Shown here: one piece after another, positions 1 to 34,399 of the stretch
Layout of the letters: every line of letters starts with the position of its first letter
Position numbering within the stretch: the first letter of the stretch is position 1
Source: Pseudobdellovibrionaceae bacterium
GTDB taxonomy: Bacteria; Bdellovibrionota; Bdellovibrionia; Bdellovibrionales; Bdellovibrionaceae
NCBI GenBank assembly: GCA_016785955.1
Contig: JAEUWH010000045.1
Location: forward strand, 1-40,495
Direction of reading: 5' to 3'
DNA: 40,495 nt
Made by a program: the position numbers and the translations under genes
Notes under the pieces: generated by a model
The model's input: the letters and a program-made list of their open reading frames with translations, nothing else
What the model was told of the DNA's origin: nothing
The model's database searches: none

Positions 1-126
1 CAATTTCTATTTTGGCTAAGAGATTAACTCCCACCCGCGCTGGGCGCGGGCCGATTCTGAAAGTAAGTTAAATTTAGTTTAAAAATCAACCTATGGTTAT
101 AGGTATTCTAAGGATAAATTTTTTTC
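1..126. other. Non-coding end of window with a GC-rich hairpin
   Basis: No convincing gene is visible here. Positions 34-40 (CCCGCGC) and 44-50 (GCGCGGG) form a perfect 7-bp GC hairpin with a 3-nt loop. No T-tract follows on either side, so it is not a standard intrinsic terminator. The rest is AT-rich. It may be the edge of a feature lying to the left of the window. Confidence 0.4.
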
Positions 127-231
127 AAAAATTCAAAATGCAAGACGTTCAAGGATTTCTCGCGGAGTCCTACGCAATGTAGGCCGCTCAAGCGGAATCC
201 CATAGTGGCAACGAAGTCAGTTTGAATTTTT
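127..231. repeat. Nested inverted-repeat (structured) element
   Basis: The ends are a perfect 11-bp inverted repeat, AAAAATTCAAA (127-137) and TTTGAATTTTT (221-231). Inside, further complementary blocks nest in order: GAC/GTC, CGTT/AACG, GGATT/AATCC, GCGG/CCGC and CCTAC/GTAGG around a GCAAT loop. The whole segment can therefore fold as one long interrupted stem of about 105 nt. It starts 10 nt beyond the 3' end of tRNA-Val in the direction of transcription. It could end the long leftward operon, protect RNA 3' ends, or be a copy of a dispersed REP/MITE-like repeat. The pairing is seen directly; the role is inferred. Confidence 0.55.
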
Positions 232-240
232 AGGAAGAAT

Positions 241-316
241 TGGTGCGAATAACTGGACTCGAACCAGTGACCTCGTCCATGTCAAGGACGCGCGCTACCA
301 ACTACGCTATATCCGC
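241..316 (-). tRNA. tRNA-Val (anticodon GAC)
   Basis: On the minus strand a full cloverleaf can be drawn. The acceptor arm is GCGGATA/TATTCGC, the D-stem GCGT/GCGC, the anticodon stem CGTCC/GGACG with loop TTGACAT (anticodon GAC, reading GUC/GUU valine codons), and the T-arm ACTGG-TTCGAGT-CCAGT. The discriminator is A and the CCA end is encoded. The first 10 nt overlap the 3' end of lipB, including its stop codon, so the tRNA is probably released from the lipB transcript by RNase P unless a promoter lies inside lipB. Confidence 0.96.
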
Positions 317-1023
317 ACTTTTAAAGTATCTTTAATTGATAATGGTTCTTGTTCGGATTGTAAATCGCAAAAGTCATTAGCTCTTTGCAATAATTTTTTT
401 TGGGCTTCAAATTCTGTCGTCCATTTTTTGAAAATGGTCTCTAAATCATCTTTTAAACCATAATTGCTGACTCGATCGACACGCGCTGAATTGACTCCAC
501 AGCTGCGTATAGAAGCAAAATACGACAGGTCATTGCACACATTAATCGCTAGACCGTGCCTGACGACCCCCTGATCGACCCGAATGCCTAAAAATGCAAT
601 TTTTCCTTGGGAGGTGTATAAACCAGGTGCCGGGCCAGAGAAACTGGTAATGCCGTATCCTTTCAACACGGCCGATGTTGCTTTTACCACCATGCAAACA
701 AAGTCCCGCACCCCAATCCCATGAACCTTCAGATCCATCATCGGGTAAATCACCAATTGTCCCGGTGTATGAAGAGTCGCTTGCCCGCCCCGATCCGTTT
801 GCACCACCGGGATTGCCTCAGCCTTAGCCTCACTCCTCTCAAACAAAACATCCTGACTCTGATCGCCTCGCACCCCCAGCGTGATGACAGATTCAAACTC
901 CATCCCAAGCACACACATCTCTGATGTACCTCGAATTCGGCCCGCCCTACTCTGCTGCTCGAGGGCCACCTGTTGATAGGAGCACAATCCTAAATACCGA
1001 CTAGTAAAGCTCAACGCGATCAT
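307..1023 (-). CDS. lipB: Octanoyltransferase LipB (lipoyl biosynthesis)
   Basis: LipB transfers octanoate from acyl-carrier protein to the lipoyl domains of 2-oxoacid dehydrogenases and glycine-cleavage H protein, in the cytoplasm. The translation carries the family blocks DRGGQATLHTPGQLVIYP, GKIAFLGIRV (catalytic Lys about 141) and the RSCG block (catalytic Cys about 175). The family's usual Tyr-His-Gly is Leu-His-Thr here. The ATG at 1023 gives 238 aa, near family length, and AGGGAGA lies immediately before it. GTG codons at 1041 and 1038 are alternatives. The start overlaps the upstream lipoprotein gene by about 20 nt, implying translational coupling. The 3' end runs 10 nt into tRNA-Val, so the last codons and the TAG stop are tRNA sequence. 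No lipA is seen in the window. Confidence 0.9.
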   Translation of the reverse strand: MIALSFTSRYLGLCSYQQVALEQQSRAGRIRGTSEMCVLGMEFESVITLGVRGDQSQDVLFERSEAKAEAIPVVQTDRGGQATLHTPGQLVIYPMMDLKVHGIGVRDFVCMVVKATSAVLKGYGITSFSGPAPGLYTSQGKIAFLGIRVDQGVVRHGLAINVCNDLSYFASIRSCGVNSARVDRVSNYGLKDDLETIFKKWTTEFEAQKKLLQRANDFCDLQSEQEPLSIKDTLKVRI

Positions 1024-1942
1024 TCTCCCTAAATCCACCACCGGAATGAATCACAGCGATGGCGCCATCTTGACCAAAGAAACTCACAACCTCTAAAGTT
1101 CCTTTTAAACGTCCAGGACTTTTACCAATAAACTGCCCCGTCTCGGTATCAAAAACCTCATCCCCATCATCTGTGACACGCAAAAGATCACCGACATTCA
1201 AACCAGAAATTTTACCCACATTTAAAAATACACGCTCACCCTGCAAAGACGCAATTCGCCCCTCCCATACCGTGGTTTCCAATGATTTCGTAATCTGCGG
1301 AATAAATTCAAACACTGTATCTTTTATAAGGGTAGGCACTATCGGGTTACTGGATTCACTCTTGAGCATTTCGGGACTAGGGGCCGCCGTGTCTTTATAC
1401 GTCACCACCTTCATGTGATTCAAAAGCTCCCGTCCATTTTGATTGACGATTCGTACTATAATCGAACACTCATATTCCGATGTTACACTTTTCAAAATAC
1501 CCTTCACCGGCGTCGAACGTTTCACGCGCAGATCTTTGATCTCGACCTCCAACGTACTATGAACTGTATATTGCTTTAATGACTTAACAATGTCTTTTAA
1601 GTCATACCCACCACCCGGGGACGTTTTAACCGTATCAATACCCAAATCCTTGCTATCAAACGCAATCACCTCGGAAGAACGATTAAGCTCTGCAATCAAT
1701 GTCTTTTGAATAGCCGTCCGCATTTCTGCAGACAGAATGGATTTAGAATCGTTAAAAGGCAAAATCATCAAACGTTTTTTTATCTGCCCTTGATCAACTC
1801 GAGGATTGATCGGAATATCTTTAACCATCCTAATCGCTTGATTCGTGTTTCTCTTTTCAACCGACTGACATGAAATCAACCCCAATAAAAATAACAGACC
1901 CAAAAAAATAATAGATTTGATTTTACTGTTGCTTAAGTTCAA
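1001..1942 (-). CDS. Lipoprotein with FlgT-like middle and C-terminal regions
   Basis: The 313-aa product has a lipoprotein signal peptide with lipobox LISC (Cys25) and is probably attached to the outer membrane facing the periplasm. Residues about 55-230 (starting RLMILPFND, with helical segments and beta strands) resemble the CsgG/LpoB-like fold. The last 85 residues, with VFLNVGKISGLNVGDLLRV and FRENDRVEL, look like the SH3-like C-terminal domain of FlgT, the flagellar H-ring protein of Vibrio. The gene overlaps the preceding FlgT-like gene by 20 nt and the following lipB by about 20 nt. The idea that the two proteins together supply the FlgT domain set is inference from motif pattern. A general CsgG-family envelope lipoprotein is the alternative. 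Confidence 0.6.
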   Translation of the reverse strand: MNLSNSKIKSIIFLGLLFLLGLISCQSVEKRNTNQAIRMVKDIPINPRVDQGQIKKRLMILPFNDSKSILSAEMRTAIQKTLIAELNRSSEVIAFDSKDLGIDTVKTSPGGGYDLKDIVKSLKQYTVHSTLEVEIKDLRVKRSTPVKGILKSVTSEYECSIIVRIVNQNGRELLNHMKVVTYKDTAAPSPEMLKSESSNPIVPTLIKDTVFEFIPQITKSLETTVWEGRIASLQGERVFLNVGKISGLNVGDLLRVTDDGDEVFDTETGQFIGKSPGRLKGTLEVVSFFGQDGAIAVIHSGGGFRENDRVELY

Positions 1943-3095
1943 ACGAGATCTCCTCAGGTTTAGAATCCACTAGCTCTAGTTTCACGTAACTCAAACTCTT
2001 CACATCCATCGCCAACAACTTATCTTGAACATCTTTAATATTTCCAACGAAATCAATTTCGTATGTAACGCTATTGGCAGCGATCGATTTTTCTTTTATG
2101 TTTTTGATATTGCCCGATTGAGCCTTTACCCGCTCTTTCAACAATTCAACTTTCTGCGGCTGTGAAACCATCGCAAACTTGAGACGAATTTTCTGTGAGT
2201 TCACCAATCCACGCTGTAATGCGTCCGTCATCAATGATACGATTTCAGCACCAATCGACTCGGACTCGTCGGCAATTTTTTTACTCAGTTCGGACTCCAT
2301 TTTTGCCGAATCCTTTGCCAGCGGCACATCATAGATCCGTTTGATATCCGCAAGCATCTTACCATTTTCCGCTTGCAATAAATTTAAATGCACTTCGACA
2401 CGCATTTGATCCATCATCCGCTCGGAACGCTTCACCAGCACTTGGCCCGACAGAACGTACGGAGTCTGCGCCAAACGAGCCAGCTTCAAAACCTCATCCG
2501 TGCTCAATTGAGACTTATTATACGATTTCGGCAATGCCGCAGAAAGCTCGATTTGATTGGCCGGCAGCAAATAAAAACCACCGCGCAAAAAAATCTCGCT
2601 CAGTTTGTCTTCCATGGCGACCAACGTCTTCGAGGTCGACTTTTCTTCTTTCGTCCACCACGACGACATTCTTTGAGAAATTGAATTCTCTATCTTAACC
2701 AAGGGTAAGATGGATTGATTTTTATCAATTTCCTCTAGCTGGCCCAAGGACTTTAACATATTACGAAACTCGGCCAGATTGACTTTGAACATCACCGTTT
2801 GCTTTGTTTTTTTATCTATTTGTTGGGATTCCGTAATATTTGAAAACGGAATAAATCGAGATGACTTTTGCACCAGCTGATTAATCACCGATTTTTTTTG
2901 TTTGCTGTAGCGCGCTTCTCCCAATACCTCGACACCAAATTCTTCGACGATTTGCATGATCGCCTTGTCTTGGATTTCCTTGCGGGCTTCCGTCGCCGAT
3001 TCCTTTTCGCTTTCAATTGTATAGGAACGCTCGATCAAACTAACCTGCGCTCCCAAAAGAAATGGCAACAAGATCATGGCACATATTTTTTTCAT
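1923..3095 (-). CDS. Exported protein with FlgT/LPP20-like N-terminal domain
   Basis: The 390-aa product starts with a Sec signal peptide (KKICAMILLPFLLGAQ) with no lipobox Cys. Residues about 28-120 contain a segment (ATEARKEIQDKAIMQIVEEF) typical of the LPP20/FlgT N-terminal fold, in which an Ala/Arg-rich helix follows a short strand. Residues about 165-300 (GGFYLLPANQIE, LARLAQTPYVLSGQVLV) match the pattern of the CsgG-like middle domain that senses or binds partners in FlgT. An SH3-like C-terminal domain is absent; the next gene has one. The ATG at 3095 is preferred over GTG 3098 because AGGGGGG lies 5 nt ahead. Its stop overlaps the next gene by 20 nt and dnaE ends 10 nt upstream. Function in the flagellar base or envelope is inferred. 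Confidence 0.6.
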   Translation of the reverse strand: MKKICAMILLPFLLGAQVSLIERSYTIESEKESATEARKEIQDKAIMQIVEEFGVEVLGEARYSKQKKSVINQLVQKSSRFIPFSNITESQQIDKKTKQTVMFKVNLAEFRNMLKSLGQLEEIDKNQSILPLVKIENSISQRMSSWWTKEEKSTSKTLVAMEDKLSEIFLRGGFYLLPANQIELSAALPKSYNKSQLSTDEVLKLARLAQTPYVLSGQVLVKRSERMMDQMRVEVHLNLLQAENGKMLADIKRIYDVPLAKDSAKMESELSKKIADESESIGAEIVSLMTDALQRGLVNSQKIRLKFAMVSQPQKVELLKERVKAQSGNIKNIKEKSIAANSVTYEIDFVGNIKDVQDKLLAMDVKSLSYVKLELVDSKPEEISFELKQQ

Positions 3096-3105
3096 CACTG
3101 CCCCC

Positions 3106-6100
3106 CTAACTGTTCTTTATTTCCAAAAAGTCTGTTCGCCCAAAATGAGAATGAATTTTTTCAAACAGATCATTATTCACACTGACTCCGGAAATATTGG
3201 GATGATCAATTTCAATTTCCCGATCATAATCCTTCAGCTTCATTTTCAAACTGAGCGGGGTCGTTCCTGGATGATCTTTCAAGACTCCGCTTAAGACAAG
3301 CAACTCGTCCTCATTGAATGATTCTAAATTGAACACAACCCGTTTTGATTTCTTAATGATATCTTCCAAGGGGACCATATTATCCACGATGATTTTAATC
3401 GCCCCATCCGTGTCTTCCAAATTCCCGCCCACCAGCAGAGGTCGTTCTGATTTTACATCCGCTTCATGCTTGGCGAAAACATCGGGAAAGATAACCAACT
3501 CGCAGGAACCATGCAGATCCTCTAGCTTCCCAAAGGCCATGCGCGTGCCTTTTTTAGTGATCATTTCCTTGAACTCGGCCATGATGCCCGACAAGATCAC
3601 CCGGCGTTTGGGCTCGCGTCTTCGATCTTGCGATACCAGCTGCGGCTGCCCAGAATCTTCAGCGGCCTGTTTCTTCAAACGCAACTCTTCGGCAATAGTT
3701 CCCAAATTTCCATTCGTCCACACGGCGGCTAATTTTTCAAAACCGTTCAAAGGATGATCACTGAGATAAAACCCCAACACTTCTTTTTCAAACGCCAAGA
3801 CCGTGGTACGTCCCCATTTTTCCAAATCGGGTAATTTAATGGATTTATCGGCGGTTTCGTCTAAATCAAAAAATGAGGACTGGCCAAGCTCACGATTTTT
3901 TTGCGTCGTCAGCGCCTGATCTAAAAATCGAGAATACCCCGCCATGAGCTGCGCCCGATGAAATCCAAATCCATCCATCGCGCCAGCTTTGATCAAACTC
4001 TCGATCACTTTTTTGTTCACCTTACGAAGATCTATACTTTCAAAAAAACCCTCAAGACTTTGAAATTTCTTGTCGTCTTTTTTCGCACGCGCGTCCAGAA
4101 TCGACTCCACGGCGGCGGAACCGACACCCTTGATCGCCCCCAAGCCAAAGAAGACACCTTCAGAGGTGACGTTAAACAAATAATCCGAAACATTAATATG
4201 CGGTGGCAGCACCTTGATACCGTGCTTTTGACAATCTTTAACGTACTTGACGATTTTGTCCGTGTCGTTGATCTCGGTCGATAACAACGCCGCAAAAAAT
4301 TCCCCCGTGTAATGATGCTTGATCCAGGCGGTCTGTGCCGTGATCACGGAATAAGCCGCGGCATGCGACTTATTAAAACCGTAATCGGCAAATTTATACA
4401 TCAATTCGAATAATTCTTCTGAACGTTTGGAATCATGGCCTTTTTCTTTGGCTCCTTTTAAAAAGCGCAAACGATGCTGATCCATTTCTTCTTTGATTTT
4501 TTTACCCATCGCCCGACGAAGCATATCCGCTTCCCCCAACGAATAGCCGGCAATCAACGAAGCGATCCCCATAACCTGTTCTTGATAAACCATGATACCA
4601 TAGGTTTCTTCTAAGACTTGTTTAGTATCTTCCAATAAGTATTCAATTGGAGACTCTTTGTGTTTACGTTTTGTGTACTCGGGAATATTGGCCATCGGAC
4701 CGGGGCGATACAACGATGTGATCGCTGTGATATCCGCAAAACTGGATGGCTTGATTTTGCGCGTGGCATCCGTGATGCCTTCACCCTCAAACTGAAAAAT
4801 CCCGGCCGTATCCCCACGGGAAAGCAACTCGTAAATTTTGGGGTCTGTCAGGGGAATAAGATTCGCCTTAACATCCACACCATGATTTCGTTTCACCAAA
4901 TTCAACGCATAATTAATATGAGTCAGTGTTTTTAAACCCAGAAAATCAAACTTAATAAGGCCAATCTTCTCGGCATGCTTCATGTCGTACTGGACGACGT
5001 TCTCTCCATCAGCGCCTTTATACAAAGGTGCCAATCGAATCAATTCGCCATCGGCGATGATGACGCCGGCAGCATGGATACCCGCATGACGAACCAATCC
5101 CTCCACACGCTGAGCTAAATCCATCAAGGTCGCAACGGTGGGATTCATGTCCATCATCTCGCGGATACGAGGTTCCATCTCTAAGGATTCTTTTAAATTA
5201 ATTCCCAACTTATCTGGAATCAATTTAGTGACGAGATCGACTTCCGCAAAGGTCATCCCCAAAACACGCCCGACGTCTTTGATCGCGGCACGTGCCTGCA
5301 ACTTTCCGTAGGTGATAATCTGCGACACCGATTGAATACCATATTTTTGGGTCACATAGTTGATCACTTCACCCCGGCGATCTTGACAAAAATCGATATC
5401 AAAATCCGGCATACTGATACGCTCGGGATTTAAAAAACGCTCGAACAGCAAAAAATTAGGCAATGGATCTAAATCAGTAATGCGCAACGAATAGGCCACC
5501 AGCGATCCCGCTCCAGATCCCCGCCCGGGGCCAACAGGAATATTATTATTTTTGGCCCAGTTAATAAAGTCTTGAACGATTAAAAAATAACCGTTGAACC
5601 CCATCTTGTCGATGACGCTCAATTCATAATTCAACCGCTTTTCATAGTCTGGCTCTTGTTCAACGGCAACGGGTTCTCCCCGCTCTTTGGCTTCATCAAA
5701 GCGCAGACGCAAGCCTTCAAATGATCGCGCCGCGATCTCTTCCTTAAGAGATCGCCCCGCTTCCGTTGGGAACGTGGGCAAGTGGTAAATGGCTTTACCA
5801 TTGGCATCTTTCAAATTGAATTTGATATTGATACTATCGGCAATCACAAGAGTGTTCGCGATCGCCTCGGGCACATCCGAAAACAAATCGTGCATGACAT
5901 GCGGAGCTTTAAAGTAAAATTCGTTAGGACCTAATCGAAAACGGGCCTCATCCTGTAAGGTACGATTGGTTCCAATACAAATCAAAACTTCCTGCGCCAC
6001 TTGATCTTCTTGATTGAGATAATAAACGTCGTTCGCCGCAACTAAAGGAATCTCCAATTTCTGCGCCAGCTCGATCAGAAAACTATCGACCGCAGAACCG

Positions 6101-6654
6101 CGCACATGCACGGTACGACTCAGTTCAATATAAAACCGCGAACCAAATATTTCTTTCAAACGAACGGCTTTAGCTTCGGCCGCCTCGGCGCCTTCTTTTA
6201 AAAATGTATCCGTGATCTCGCCACGGTTTCCACCGCTCAAACAAATCAAATGCTCTGAATATTTATTTAAGACTTCATAATCAATACGCGGTTTCCAATA
6301 GAAACCTTCCTGATAACCAATCGAACTCAGCTGACAAAGGTTCCGATAACCCTCAATGTTCTGAGCTAAAAACACCAATCGCCGCGGACCCATAAAGGCA
6401 TCCCGATCCGCTTTCTTTTCAAAACGGTTTTCGCACACATACGCATCCAACCCTAAGATCGGATTGACGTTGTTATCTTTACAGGCAAAATAAAATTCGA
6501 TCGCACCGAACATGGACCCATTGTCAGTCAAAGCAACAGCCTTCATGCCCATTTCGGCCGCTTTTTTAGCAATTTGTTTCACTCGTGGCGTGGCTTCCAG
6601 TAACGAATACTCGGAGTGCGTATGCAGATGTACAAAAGGAACGATCTCAGACAT
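3106..6654 (-). CDS. dnaE: DNA polymerase III alpha subunit DnaE
   Basis: This is the replicative polymerase catalytic subunit, 1182 aa, close to the usual 1150-1200. In order it shows a PHP domain (HLHTHSEYSLLEA near residue 10, VALTDNGSMFGA), the C-family polymerase palm and fingers with GPGRGSGAGSLVAY and the catalytic triad region MPDFDIDFCQDRRGE (about 413-427), tandem HhH near residue 840, and an OB-fold beginning ILSGIMAEFKEMITKKGT around residue 990. Both His residues of the PHP metal-site motif HLHTH are present. The start ATG lies 3 nt after the guaA stop, with GGGAA inside the end of guaA as the ribosome site, so the two are translationally coupled. The linkage of dnaE to guaBA in one gene string is unusual compared with the common lpx-rnhB-dnaE context of proteobacteria. 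Confidence 0.97.
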   Translation of the reverse strand: MSEIVPFVHLHTHSEYSLLEATPRVKQIAKKAAEMGMKAVALTDNGSMFGAIEFYFACKDNNVNPILGLDAYVCENRFEKKADRDAFMGPRRLVFLAQNIEGYRNLCQLSSIGYQEGFYWKPRIDYEVLNKYSEHLICLSGGNRGEITDTFLKEGAEAAEAKAVRLKEIFGSRFYIELSRTVHVRGSAVDSFLIELAQKLEIPLVAANDVYYLNQEDQVAQEVLICIGTNRTLQDEARFRLGPNEFYFKAPHVMHDLFSDVPEAIANTLVIADSINIKFNLKDANGKAIYHLPTFPTEAGRSLKEEIAARSFEGLRLRFDEAKERGEPVAVEQEPDYEKRLNYELSVIDKMGFNGYFLIVQDFINWAKNNNIPVGPGRGSGAGSLVAYSLRITDLDPLPNFLLFERFLNPERISMPDFDIDFCQDRRGEVINYVTQKYGIQSVSQIITYGKLQARAAIKDVGRVLGMTFAEVDLVTKLIPDKLGINLKESLEMEPRIREMMDMNPTVATLMDLAQRVEGLVRHAGIHAAGVIIADGELIRLAPLYKGADGENVVQYDMKHAEKIGLIKFDFLGLKTLTHINYALNLVKRNHGVDVKANLIPLTDPKIYELLSRGDTAGIFQFEGEGITDATRKIKPSSFADITAITSLYRPGPMANIPEYTKRKHKESPIEYLLEDTKQVLEETYGIMVYQEQVMGIASLIAGYSLGEADMLRRAMGKKIKEEMDQHRLRFLKGAKEKGHDSKRSEELFELMYKFADYGFNKSHAAAYSVITAQTAWIKHHYTGEFFAALLSTEINDTDKIVKYVKDCQKHGIKVLPPHINVSDYLFNVTSEGVFFGLGAIKGVGSAAVESILDARAKKDDKKFQSLEGFFESIDLRKVNKKVIESLIKAGAMDGFGFHRAQLMAGYSRFLDQALTTQKNRELGQSSFFDLDETADKSIKLPDLEKWGRTTVLAFEKEVLGFYLSDHPLNGFEKLAAVWTNGNLGTIAEELRLKKQAAEDSGQPQLVSQDRRREPKRRVILSGIMAEFKEMITKKGTRMAFGKLEDLHGSCELVIFPDVFAKHEADVKSERPLLVGGNLEDTDGAIKIIVDNMVPLEDIIKKSKRVVFNLESFNEDELLVLSGVLKDHPGTTPLSLKMKLKDYDREIEIDHPNISGVSVNNDLFEKIHSHFGRTDFLEIKNS

Positions 6655-32725: not shown

Positions 32726-34399
32726 TTATGCTTTCCGACTGTAATTTTGCATCTTCACAGCCATCGCCCGCAGATCCTCTTGATGACGATCATTCATTCG
32801 ATCTACTTGCGCTTTATATTGGTCTTGTAAATCCTTTATTTTATTCTCATATTTATCTTCTACCTCATTTCGAGTATTGACAATGGCTTTGTTTTTTTCT
32901 GACATTACTGCTTCGTTTTGTTTAGATACCGATTTCATCTCCTTGGCGTGCTCATCATTTAACTTAGCAATTTTTTCTTCAAAGCCTCGAGTCGTTCGAT
33001 CTAAACGCTGCTCATAAGTTTGCTTAAGCTTGCGAAACTTTTCCCCCATAATACCCGTTAAATTATTTAAATCTTTATCATGCTTTTCACGCTGCTCAAA
33101 AACCTTCTCAAGATATCCGTCCTTCATTGCATCCAGGTATTCATCATAGTAACTAACTATGCGTCCTTCACTTTCATGAGCTAAGCGTTGAATCGTTCCA
33201 ATACGTTTTTCCGCCGCATTTTTTGAATTAAATAACTCATTTCTATTTTGCTCTTGAATGGCACTACGATCTTGGCGATGTTTTTCATTTGCCAAACTTT
33301 GCTCGACACGATTTCGCAGGTTTTTTTCCTGCAATATATTTGAATGCGTGGTGTTTATTTTTTCAATCCGCTTATCATTAATATCTTTAAACACACCACG
33401 CTGCTCTTCCATATTTCCTTCGTAGATTCCTATCTTTTTTTCATAGTCATCAACGATGTGTTGTTTTTCTATTCCGTCCTTCTTTTTTTGATTGATTTGA
33501 TCCACGTACATGCGGTTTTTCAAGCGATGAATCTCCGAATCTTTTACACGAACTTGATTATTATACCGTTCATCTATGCCTTCACGAAATTTATCATTTC
33601 CACCGACCAACCGCTGCTCTAAATCATTATATTTCTTATCAAACCGCTCGCGTGTACGATTTACTTCTTGCTGCAACAATTCATCACGAACTGCAAGTTC
33701 ATCACCATACTGCGAATTCAAAGTCTGAACTGTCATAGAATACTTATTCGACCAATCCTCATTATCCCGTTTGTTGTCTTTCTTCTGCGTACTAACTTCG
33801 TTCTCATAGAAACGCCGTAATTTATCTCGTTCATTATATGCTTTTAAACGTTCATCTTCAGCCGAATTTGTTAAATACATCTTTTCTTTTTCTTGCGCCG
33901 CCCGCAACTTTTTCGTGCGTGCTTCTAGAGTCTCCTGTAACTCCGCACGACTTTTCTGATGAAGATTGTCAATCTGTTCGCTTTTCTCTGACATCGCTTC
34001 ATTGAATCTACGACTCATAAGATTTTTCTGACTACCCGTCGACTTGGATTGATGCTCTCGTTCGCTTTCATAAGTCTCCGTCAAACGGGCACGTTCACTT
34101 TGCGAGTCTTCCATTTTTTTTCGCAATTGGCTCGCGTACACACCCCTGACATCTTCAATTTGCTTTTGATGATCACGATCTCGATCTGTCAAACGCTCAT
34201 GAAACTTTTTTTGCATGTCATTTATTTTATTTTCATAATTTGCACTCGTTTCTTTCAGTTCGTCCGTGTGCTTTTTTTGATTACGTTTAATTTCCGCATT
34301 CTTTTTCTTAAGATTGGAGGTCTCGCGATTTTCGTACTCATCTTTTAAATCTGCTAACCGACTAGTTTCCTGAGCACGATCGGATCTTGAAATGGCCAT
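32726..34399 (-). CDS. Long coiled-coil protein (557 aa)
   Basis: The function is unknown. Almost the entire protein is predicted coiled coil: rich in Glu, Lys, Arg, Gln, Asn and Asp, with heptad-spaced Leu/Ile/Val/Met/Tyr and very few Pro or Gly. There is no signal peptide or membrane segment, so it is probably a cytoplasmic filament or scaffold. The frame is open from 34426, but AGGAGG sits 6 nt before the ATG at 34399, and a start there also aligns with the short paralogue at 17267. The repeated blocks HQKQIEDVRGVYASQL and similar (ERLTDRDRD, ERYNNQVRVKD) hint at internal repeats. It is followed after 2 nt by pyk. Bacterial coiled-coil filament proteins shape or stiffen cells; that role here is inference. 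Confidence 0.85.
   Translation of the reverse strand: MAISRSDRAQETSRLADLKDEYENRETSNLKKKNAEIKRNQKKHTDELKETSANYENKINDMQKKFHERLTDRDRDHQKQIEDVRGVYASQLRKKMEDSQSERARLTETYESEREHQSKSTGSQKNLMSRRFNEAMSEKSEQIDNLHQKSRAELQETLEARTKKLRAAQEKEKMYLTNSAEDERLKAYNERDKLRRFYENEVSTQKKDNKRDNEDWSNKYSMTVQTLNSQYGDELAVRDELLQQEVNRTRERFDKKYNDLEQRLVGGNDKFREGIDERYNNQVRVKDSEIHRLKNRMYVDQINQKKKDGIEKQHIVDDYEKKIGIYEGNMEEQRGVFKDINDKRIEKINTTHSNILQEKNLRNRVEQSLANEKHRQDRSAIQEQNRNELFNSKNAAEKRIGTIQRLAHESEGRIVSYYDEYLDAMKDGYLEKVFEQREKHDKDLNNLTGIMGEKFRKLKQTYEQRLDRTTRGFEEKIAKLNDEHAKEMKSVSKQNEAVMSEKNKAIVNTRNEVEDKYENKIKDLQDQYKAQVDRMNDRHQEDLRAMAVKMQNYSRKA

Follow-up and report, generated by a model that had tools for sequence, protein, structure and literature searches.

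A valine tRNA that overlaps the 3' end of lipB in a Pseudobdellovibrionaceae genome and in relatives among the Bdellovibrionales

Bacterial tRNA genes and protein genes may be close neighbours, and in the window analysed here (the whole stretch of 40,495 nt from a Pseudobdellovibrionaceae genome) the neighbours share nucleotides: the stop codon of lipB, the octanoyltransferase gene, lies inside a valine tRNA on the same strand. This locus raises the question of whether the overlap links the supply of a tRNA to protein lipoylation, or whether two genes have simply been squeezed together. The initial annotation proposed the former. The comparisons reported below favour the latter, at a probability of roughly 0.7: a tRNA unit with its own promoter would sit within the dispensable end of lipB, and the overlap would be a tolerated squeeze rather than a switch.

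The lipB gene and the tRNA at its end

The lipB ORF (Table 1) probably starts at an in-frame ATG near position 1023. Its product scores 111.7 bits against TIGR00214, above the curated cut-off of 83.55 bits, and is thus a member of the LipB octanoyltransferases. Residues K147 and C181, which we take to be the catalytic lysine and cysteine of LipB, are invariant in an alignment of 35 LipB sequences, and the tail beyond about residue 215 is unconserved in the same alignment. Upstream, on the minus strand of window positions 1001-6654, lies an ORF of 1182 aa whose sequence resembles DNA polymerase III alpha (dnaE), followed by ORFs of 391 and 313 aa and then by lipB. Short overlaps join the last three members of this series, and the four ORFs probably form one operon; a search of the 391-aa and 313-aa ORFs gave no NCBIfam match.

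The tRNA has a complete cloverleaf, a GAC anticodon and a CCA end, and is therefore a tRNA-Val(GAC); it matches Rfam RF00005 at 316..244 on the minus strand (69 bits, E 3.6e-13). The 3' end of lipB reads ATT AAA GAT ACT TTA AAA GTG CGG ATA TAG (minus strand), and the mature tRNA starts at the last G of the GTG codon, position 316. The initial annotation had described this junction, with its 10-nt overlap and the lipB stop codon inside the tRNA, in the same way, and the ORF, the ARAGORN model and the sequence itself bear it out. For an ORF that runs into the tRNA in this frame, a stop at tRNA positions 8-10 is unsurprising, because U8-A9-G10 is a common feature, present in 29 of the 43 orthologous tRNAs. 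Adding 30-100 nt of lipB mRNA to the tRNA leaves the cloverleaf as the predicted fold of minimum energy.

Table 1. Features of the lipB/tRNA-Val locus, in window coordinates
Feature	Position	Strand	Details	Basis
tRNA-Val(GAC)	241..316	(-)	CCA encoded	ARAGORN; Rfam RF00005
lipB/tRNA-Val overlap	307..316	(-)	10 nt; lipB stop UAG = tRNA U8 A9 G10	sequence, ORF, ARAGORN
lipB ORF (octanoyltransferase)	307..1041	(-)	244 aa; stop TAG at 309-307	
lipB 3' end	317..400	(-)	codes non-conserved LipB tail; holds predicted tRNA promoter and leader	alignment, promoter scans
Predicted -10 hexamer TATCAA	336..341	(-)	inside lipB, 19 nt before tRNA; score 7.0, rank p 0.06	sigma-70 matrix scan
Predicted -35 hexamer TTTACA	359..364	(-)	17-nt spacer; in the distance range of TTGAC at other loci	sigma-70 matrix scan

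An artefact of annotation, with a true LipB end further upstream or a tRNA pseudogene, is hardly credible. The unconserved tail of LipB would agree with an earlier end; however, lipB has no earlier in-frame stop, the tRNA scores 69 bits and has its CCA, and no other GAC valine tRNA occurs among the 30 best of the 33 tRNA matches in the genome. An established gene that runs into a tRNA is unusual within this genome: at the other tRNAs the nearest sizeable co-directional ORFs stop 43-234 nt upstream, and only two further ORFs, both short and unverified (135 and 97 aa), enter a tRNA.

A GC-rich inverted repeat (CCCGCGC/GCGCGGG) occupies window positions 31-51, about 190 nt 3' of tRNA-Val and near the contig end, with no clear T run on the tRNA strand.

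The arrangement in related genomes

The distance from the lipB stop codon to the tRNA was taken at 80 loci that hold lipB orthologues of Bdellovibrionales. A tRNA-Val(GAC) follows lipB on the same strand within 300 nt at 43 of these loci, and the gene order lipB to tRNA-Val(GAC) is old in Bdellovibrionales. The spacing ranges from +299 to -81 nt, with gaps of 5 to 299 nt where the two genes do not overlap. They overlap at nine of the 43 loci, the window included. Seven loci share the 10-nt overlap with UAG at tRNA positions 8-10 (G000, which is the window genome, G062, G137, G075, G127, G129 and G110). In G016 the overlap is 35 nt long and lipB stops at a UGA formed by tRNA nucleotides 33-35, in the anticodon loop. 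At the remaining locus (G008; L082) the entire tRNA is nested in lipB, and the stop codon comes directly after CCA.

None of the five other genomes of the same genus has the overlap: the spacer is 181 nt long in three of them and 19 nt in a fourth, and the fifth lacks a tRNA at this place. As to whether the overlap is kept in related genomes, a point on which the initial annotation had made its proposal depend, the outcome is therefore divided, with a scattered recurrence elsewhere in the order and absence from the five other genomes of the genus. In the nearest relatives lipB ends with a TAA located 3 nt before a copy of the tRNA-Val 5' half, and an alignment places 18 nt there where the window has 17; thus, a net change of 1 nt moved the lipB stop codon in the window from a place immediately upstream of the tRNA into its first nucleotides.

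Remnant tRNA copies, either half or degenerate, occur at L032-L034 and L216. The same 181-nt spacer separates lipB from tRNA-Val, with 100% identity, in the three same-genus genomes that carry L032 (positions 2236-2420), L033 and L034, although their lipB genes, over most of their length, are only about 71-77% identical in DNA sequence. This spacer contains a 41-nt copy of the 5' part of the tRNA that is 97.6% identical to the window tRNA, and it resembles a scar left by an element that inserted at the tRNA, or a recent transfer. At L216 (1600-1850), a degenerate tRNA copy provides the UAG at which lipB ends, and an intact tRNA-Val lies 144 nt beyond. A lipB without a downstream tRNA, at L051 (2100-2130), ends in GCGGATTAGCTC, which is similar to the first nucleotides of a tRNA and is perhaps a remnant, perhaps a chance resemblance.

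The overlap is easily gained or lost and is scattered on the LipB tree. Placed on this tree as a label, it takes 8 changes for the 9 loci, compared with a mean of 8.4 for shuffled labels, and the well-supported branches force at least three changes. Shared ancestry as the cause of the overlap is thus unsupported by the tree.

Each of the three overlap lengths corresponds to an in-frame stop supplied by the conserved tRNA or by the sequence directly 3' of it. The seven overlaps that involve UAG-type tRNAs all end at the stop at positions 8-10, for which an equal share among the three frames gives (1/3)^7 = 0.0005, or 0.004 with one genus collapsed. This bias exceeds an equal share among frames and is not predicted by pure drift. 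The simplest reason for it would be selection against long read-through into the tRNA.

A further explanation is that the overlap at U8A9G10 is itself under mild selection: the earliest stop within the tRNA would spare the body of the tRNA from ribosomes and put translation before processing, so that translation finishes before the tRNA folds and is cut. The absence of later frames among the seven UAG-type cases, and the recurrence of the 8-10 overlap across three families and five genera, are consistent with this idea. However, the numbers are small, and three of the cases come from a single genus; an equal bias would arise if selection acted only against long junk tails, and in two tRNAs of the UGG type overlaps as deep as 35 and 81 nt are tolerated. 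We regard mild selection as unlikely. A more elaborate version is less likely still. In that version termination at U8-A9-G10 would be selected because the terminating ribosome prevents the tRNA from folding before translation of lipB is complete, after which RNase P would remove the stop codon; each lipB transcript would give a limited burst of LipB before it becomes nonstop, and a separate internal promoter would supply the tRNA.

A predicted tRNA promoter and the fate of lipB transcripts

The 60-80 nt that precede the tRNA were scanned with a sigma-70 matrix, and scores were compared with those of windows sliding along lipB and of dinucleotide-shuffled sequence. All nine overlap loci reach a rank p of 0.08 or less against windows of the same lipB gene, seven of them below 0.05. 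The candidate promoter of the window (Table 1) is weak and ranks below most loci, with a dinucleotide-shuffle p of 0.35, and a simpler consensus promoter scan of window positions 1-3200 listed no minus-strand site close to the tRNA.

The motif TTGAC has 22 matches 40-59 nt before the tRNA, versus about one in each other 20-nt bin up to 400 nt, a peak with a Poisson probability of about 1e-21 that is overstated, the sequences being related. It is found in 16 of 29 genera, and the same TTGAC -35 element stands at some other tRNAs of the window genome. Of the motifs, 16 lie within lipB, 9 in one codon phase and 7 in another, and 11 span the lipB stop codon or fall in the spacer. The two codon phases and the occurrences in the spacer rule out conservation of the LipB protein as its cause; TTGAC thus tracks the tRNA and not the protein. 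Most likely, tRNA-Val has its own sigma-70-like promoter within the 3' end of lipB. A dedicated tRNA promoter was the finding that the initial annotation had set against its own proposal; one is now predicted, from TTGAC at a fixed distance, at the level of sequence prediction only.

In the favoured reading, that of a tRNA unit inside the dispensable end of lipB, tRNA-Val(GAC) would be a small transcription unit that can be transcribed without lipB. The LipB tail would be free of protein constraint, which would let the lipB stop codon drift. Where an upstream stop is lost or the frame is shifted, the ORF would enter the tRNA and end at the first in-frame stop on offer, namely the UAG at 8-10, the UGA at 33-35 or a stop just after CCA. 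A full-length lipB mRNA would then include at least the first ten nucleotides of the tRNA, and the entire tRNA if there is no terminator inside it. If RNase P cuts such a read-through transcript, the stop codon would be lost and a nonstop mRNA would result, probably as a tolerated by-product whose stalled ribosomes may be cleared by tmRNA and SmpB. This scheme would require no coupling between tRNA supply and lipoylation.

The window genome encodes both tmRNA (174 bits) and SmpB (186.7 bits). The claim that an RNase P cut would turn the lipB mRNA into a nonstop target for rescue therefore agrees with the geometry of the overlap and with the rescue genes present, the cleavage itself being presumed. 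The genome also has a second LipB (L218:1585-2280, on G000:C62), located directly downstream of a dihydrolipoamide-dehydrogenase-like ORF whose name was read from the sequence and not from a profile. Thus, lipoylation need not depend on the copy linked to tRNA-Val.

The initial annotation went a step further and suggested a regulatory link, in which the tRNA is cut from the lipB transcript, so that tRNA processing and LipB synthesis are mutually exclusive on each transcript. We know of no role of LipB with tRNA-Val or of any other tie between the two. The predicted tRNA promoter within lipB, the second LipB and the scattered occurrence of an overlap that the genus has not kept all weigh against this link, and leave the proposed connection between tRNA supply and lipoylation unsupported. 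In its favour are the overlap geometry, the stability of the cloverleaf in the context of the lipB mRNA, the presence of tmRNA and SmpB, and a like logic proposed for tRNA-Sec in selB (PMC8124441). Taken together, these points make a regulatory link improbable.

Other gene/tRNA overlaps and tRNA-Val-like units

The closest known case is that of selB and selC. In Alphaproteobacteria, Gammaproteobacteria and Nitrospirae, the tRNA-Sec gene selC is nested in, or overlaps, the 3' end of selB (Mukai 2021; PMC8124441), and that paper presents itself as the first to report a bacterial ORF with a tRNA nested in it. The selB loci, too, include partial overlaps, remnants and sister loci in which the two genes lie apart, and the overlap is not essential (PMC8124441). 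Processing of tRNA-Sec has been proposed to make the selB mRNA nonstop, the two products being alternatives, as a hypothesis only (PMC8124441). The lipB locus resembles selB-selC in that a sense-strand tRNA overlaps the 3' end of a genuine ORF, in that whole, partial, remnant and separated forms are found among relatives, and in a geometry by which an RNase P cut would give a nonstop mRNA; regulation is hypothetical in both.

The two systems also differ. The lipB locus joins an ordinary elongator tRNA to a lipoate enzyme, two partners that are not known to work together; its genes being lipB and tRNA-Val, it is not a case of a protein that works with the tRNA nested in its gene. Unlike in selB-selC, the lipB stop mostly falls at U8A9G10, the tRNA-Val unit has a predicted promoter inside lipB, and there is no constant overlap with the next ORF.

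Animal mitochondria provide another example, in Armadillidium vulgare, where tRNA-Lys lies inside cox1 (cited in PMC8124441). Excision of the tRNA takes away part of the upstream ORF in such overlaps, as it would in lipB; however, mitochondria have compact genomes with few promoters, whereas lipB/tRNA-Val belongs to a bacterial genome of 4.3 Mb. In Escherichia coli, secG-leuU represents the mRNA-tRNA cotranscript type, in which the tRNA lies directly 3' of a protein gene and is released by RNases. The tRNA is directly downstream of a protein gene in lipB/tRNA-Val too, but here the stop codon of that gene itself sits in the tRNA.

A literature search for an overlap between lipB and a tRNA found no paper. 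The lipB/tRNA-Val loci add a second family of nested tRNAs in bacterial ORFs, and here the tRNA is an ordinary elongator. Their three stop positions, the fully nested form and the many non-overlapping sister loci are natural controls for the idea that RNase P makes the upstream message nonstop. They suggest that the dispensable 3' end of an enzyme gene can hide a tRNA promoter, and that U8-A9-G10, a widespread feature, provides a ready-made stop codon for genes entering a tRNA.

Fragments of tRNA-Val(GAC) are scattered in the window genome at L105 (G000:C19), L106 (G000:C86) and L107 (G000:C114). Most are without the 5' part, and ARAGORN calls one tRNA-Val in L107. A search for integrases (PF00589) gave hits, none of them on the G000 and G001 contigs that hold the examined fragments, G001:C74 included. 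Two further units of like layout are present in G001, at L103 (G001:C74 near 402-607) and L104 (G001:C74 near 33013-33229). Each consists of a core, TTGGTAGCGCGCTTCCTTGACAT, about 110 nt, repeats of TTTTGGTAGCTTGGTAGC, and then tRNA-Val or a tRNA-Val-like sequence; the core and repeats could be integrase core and arm sites.
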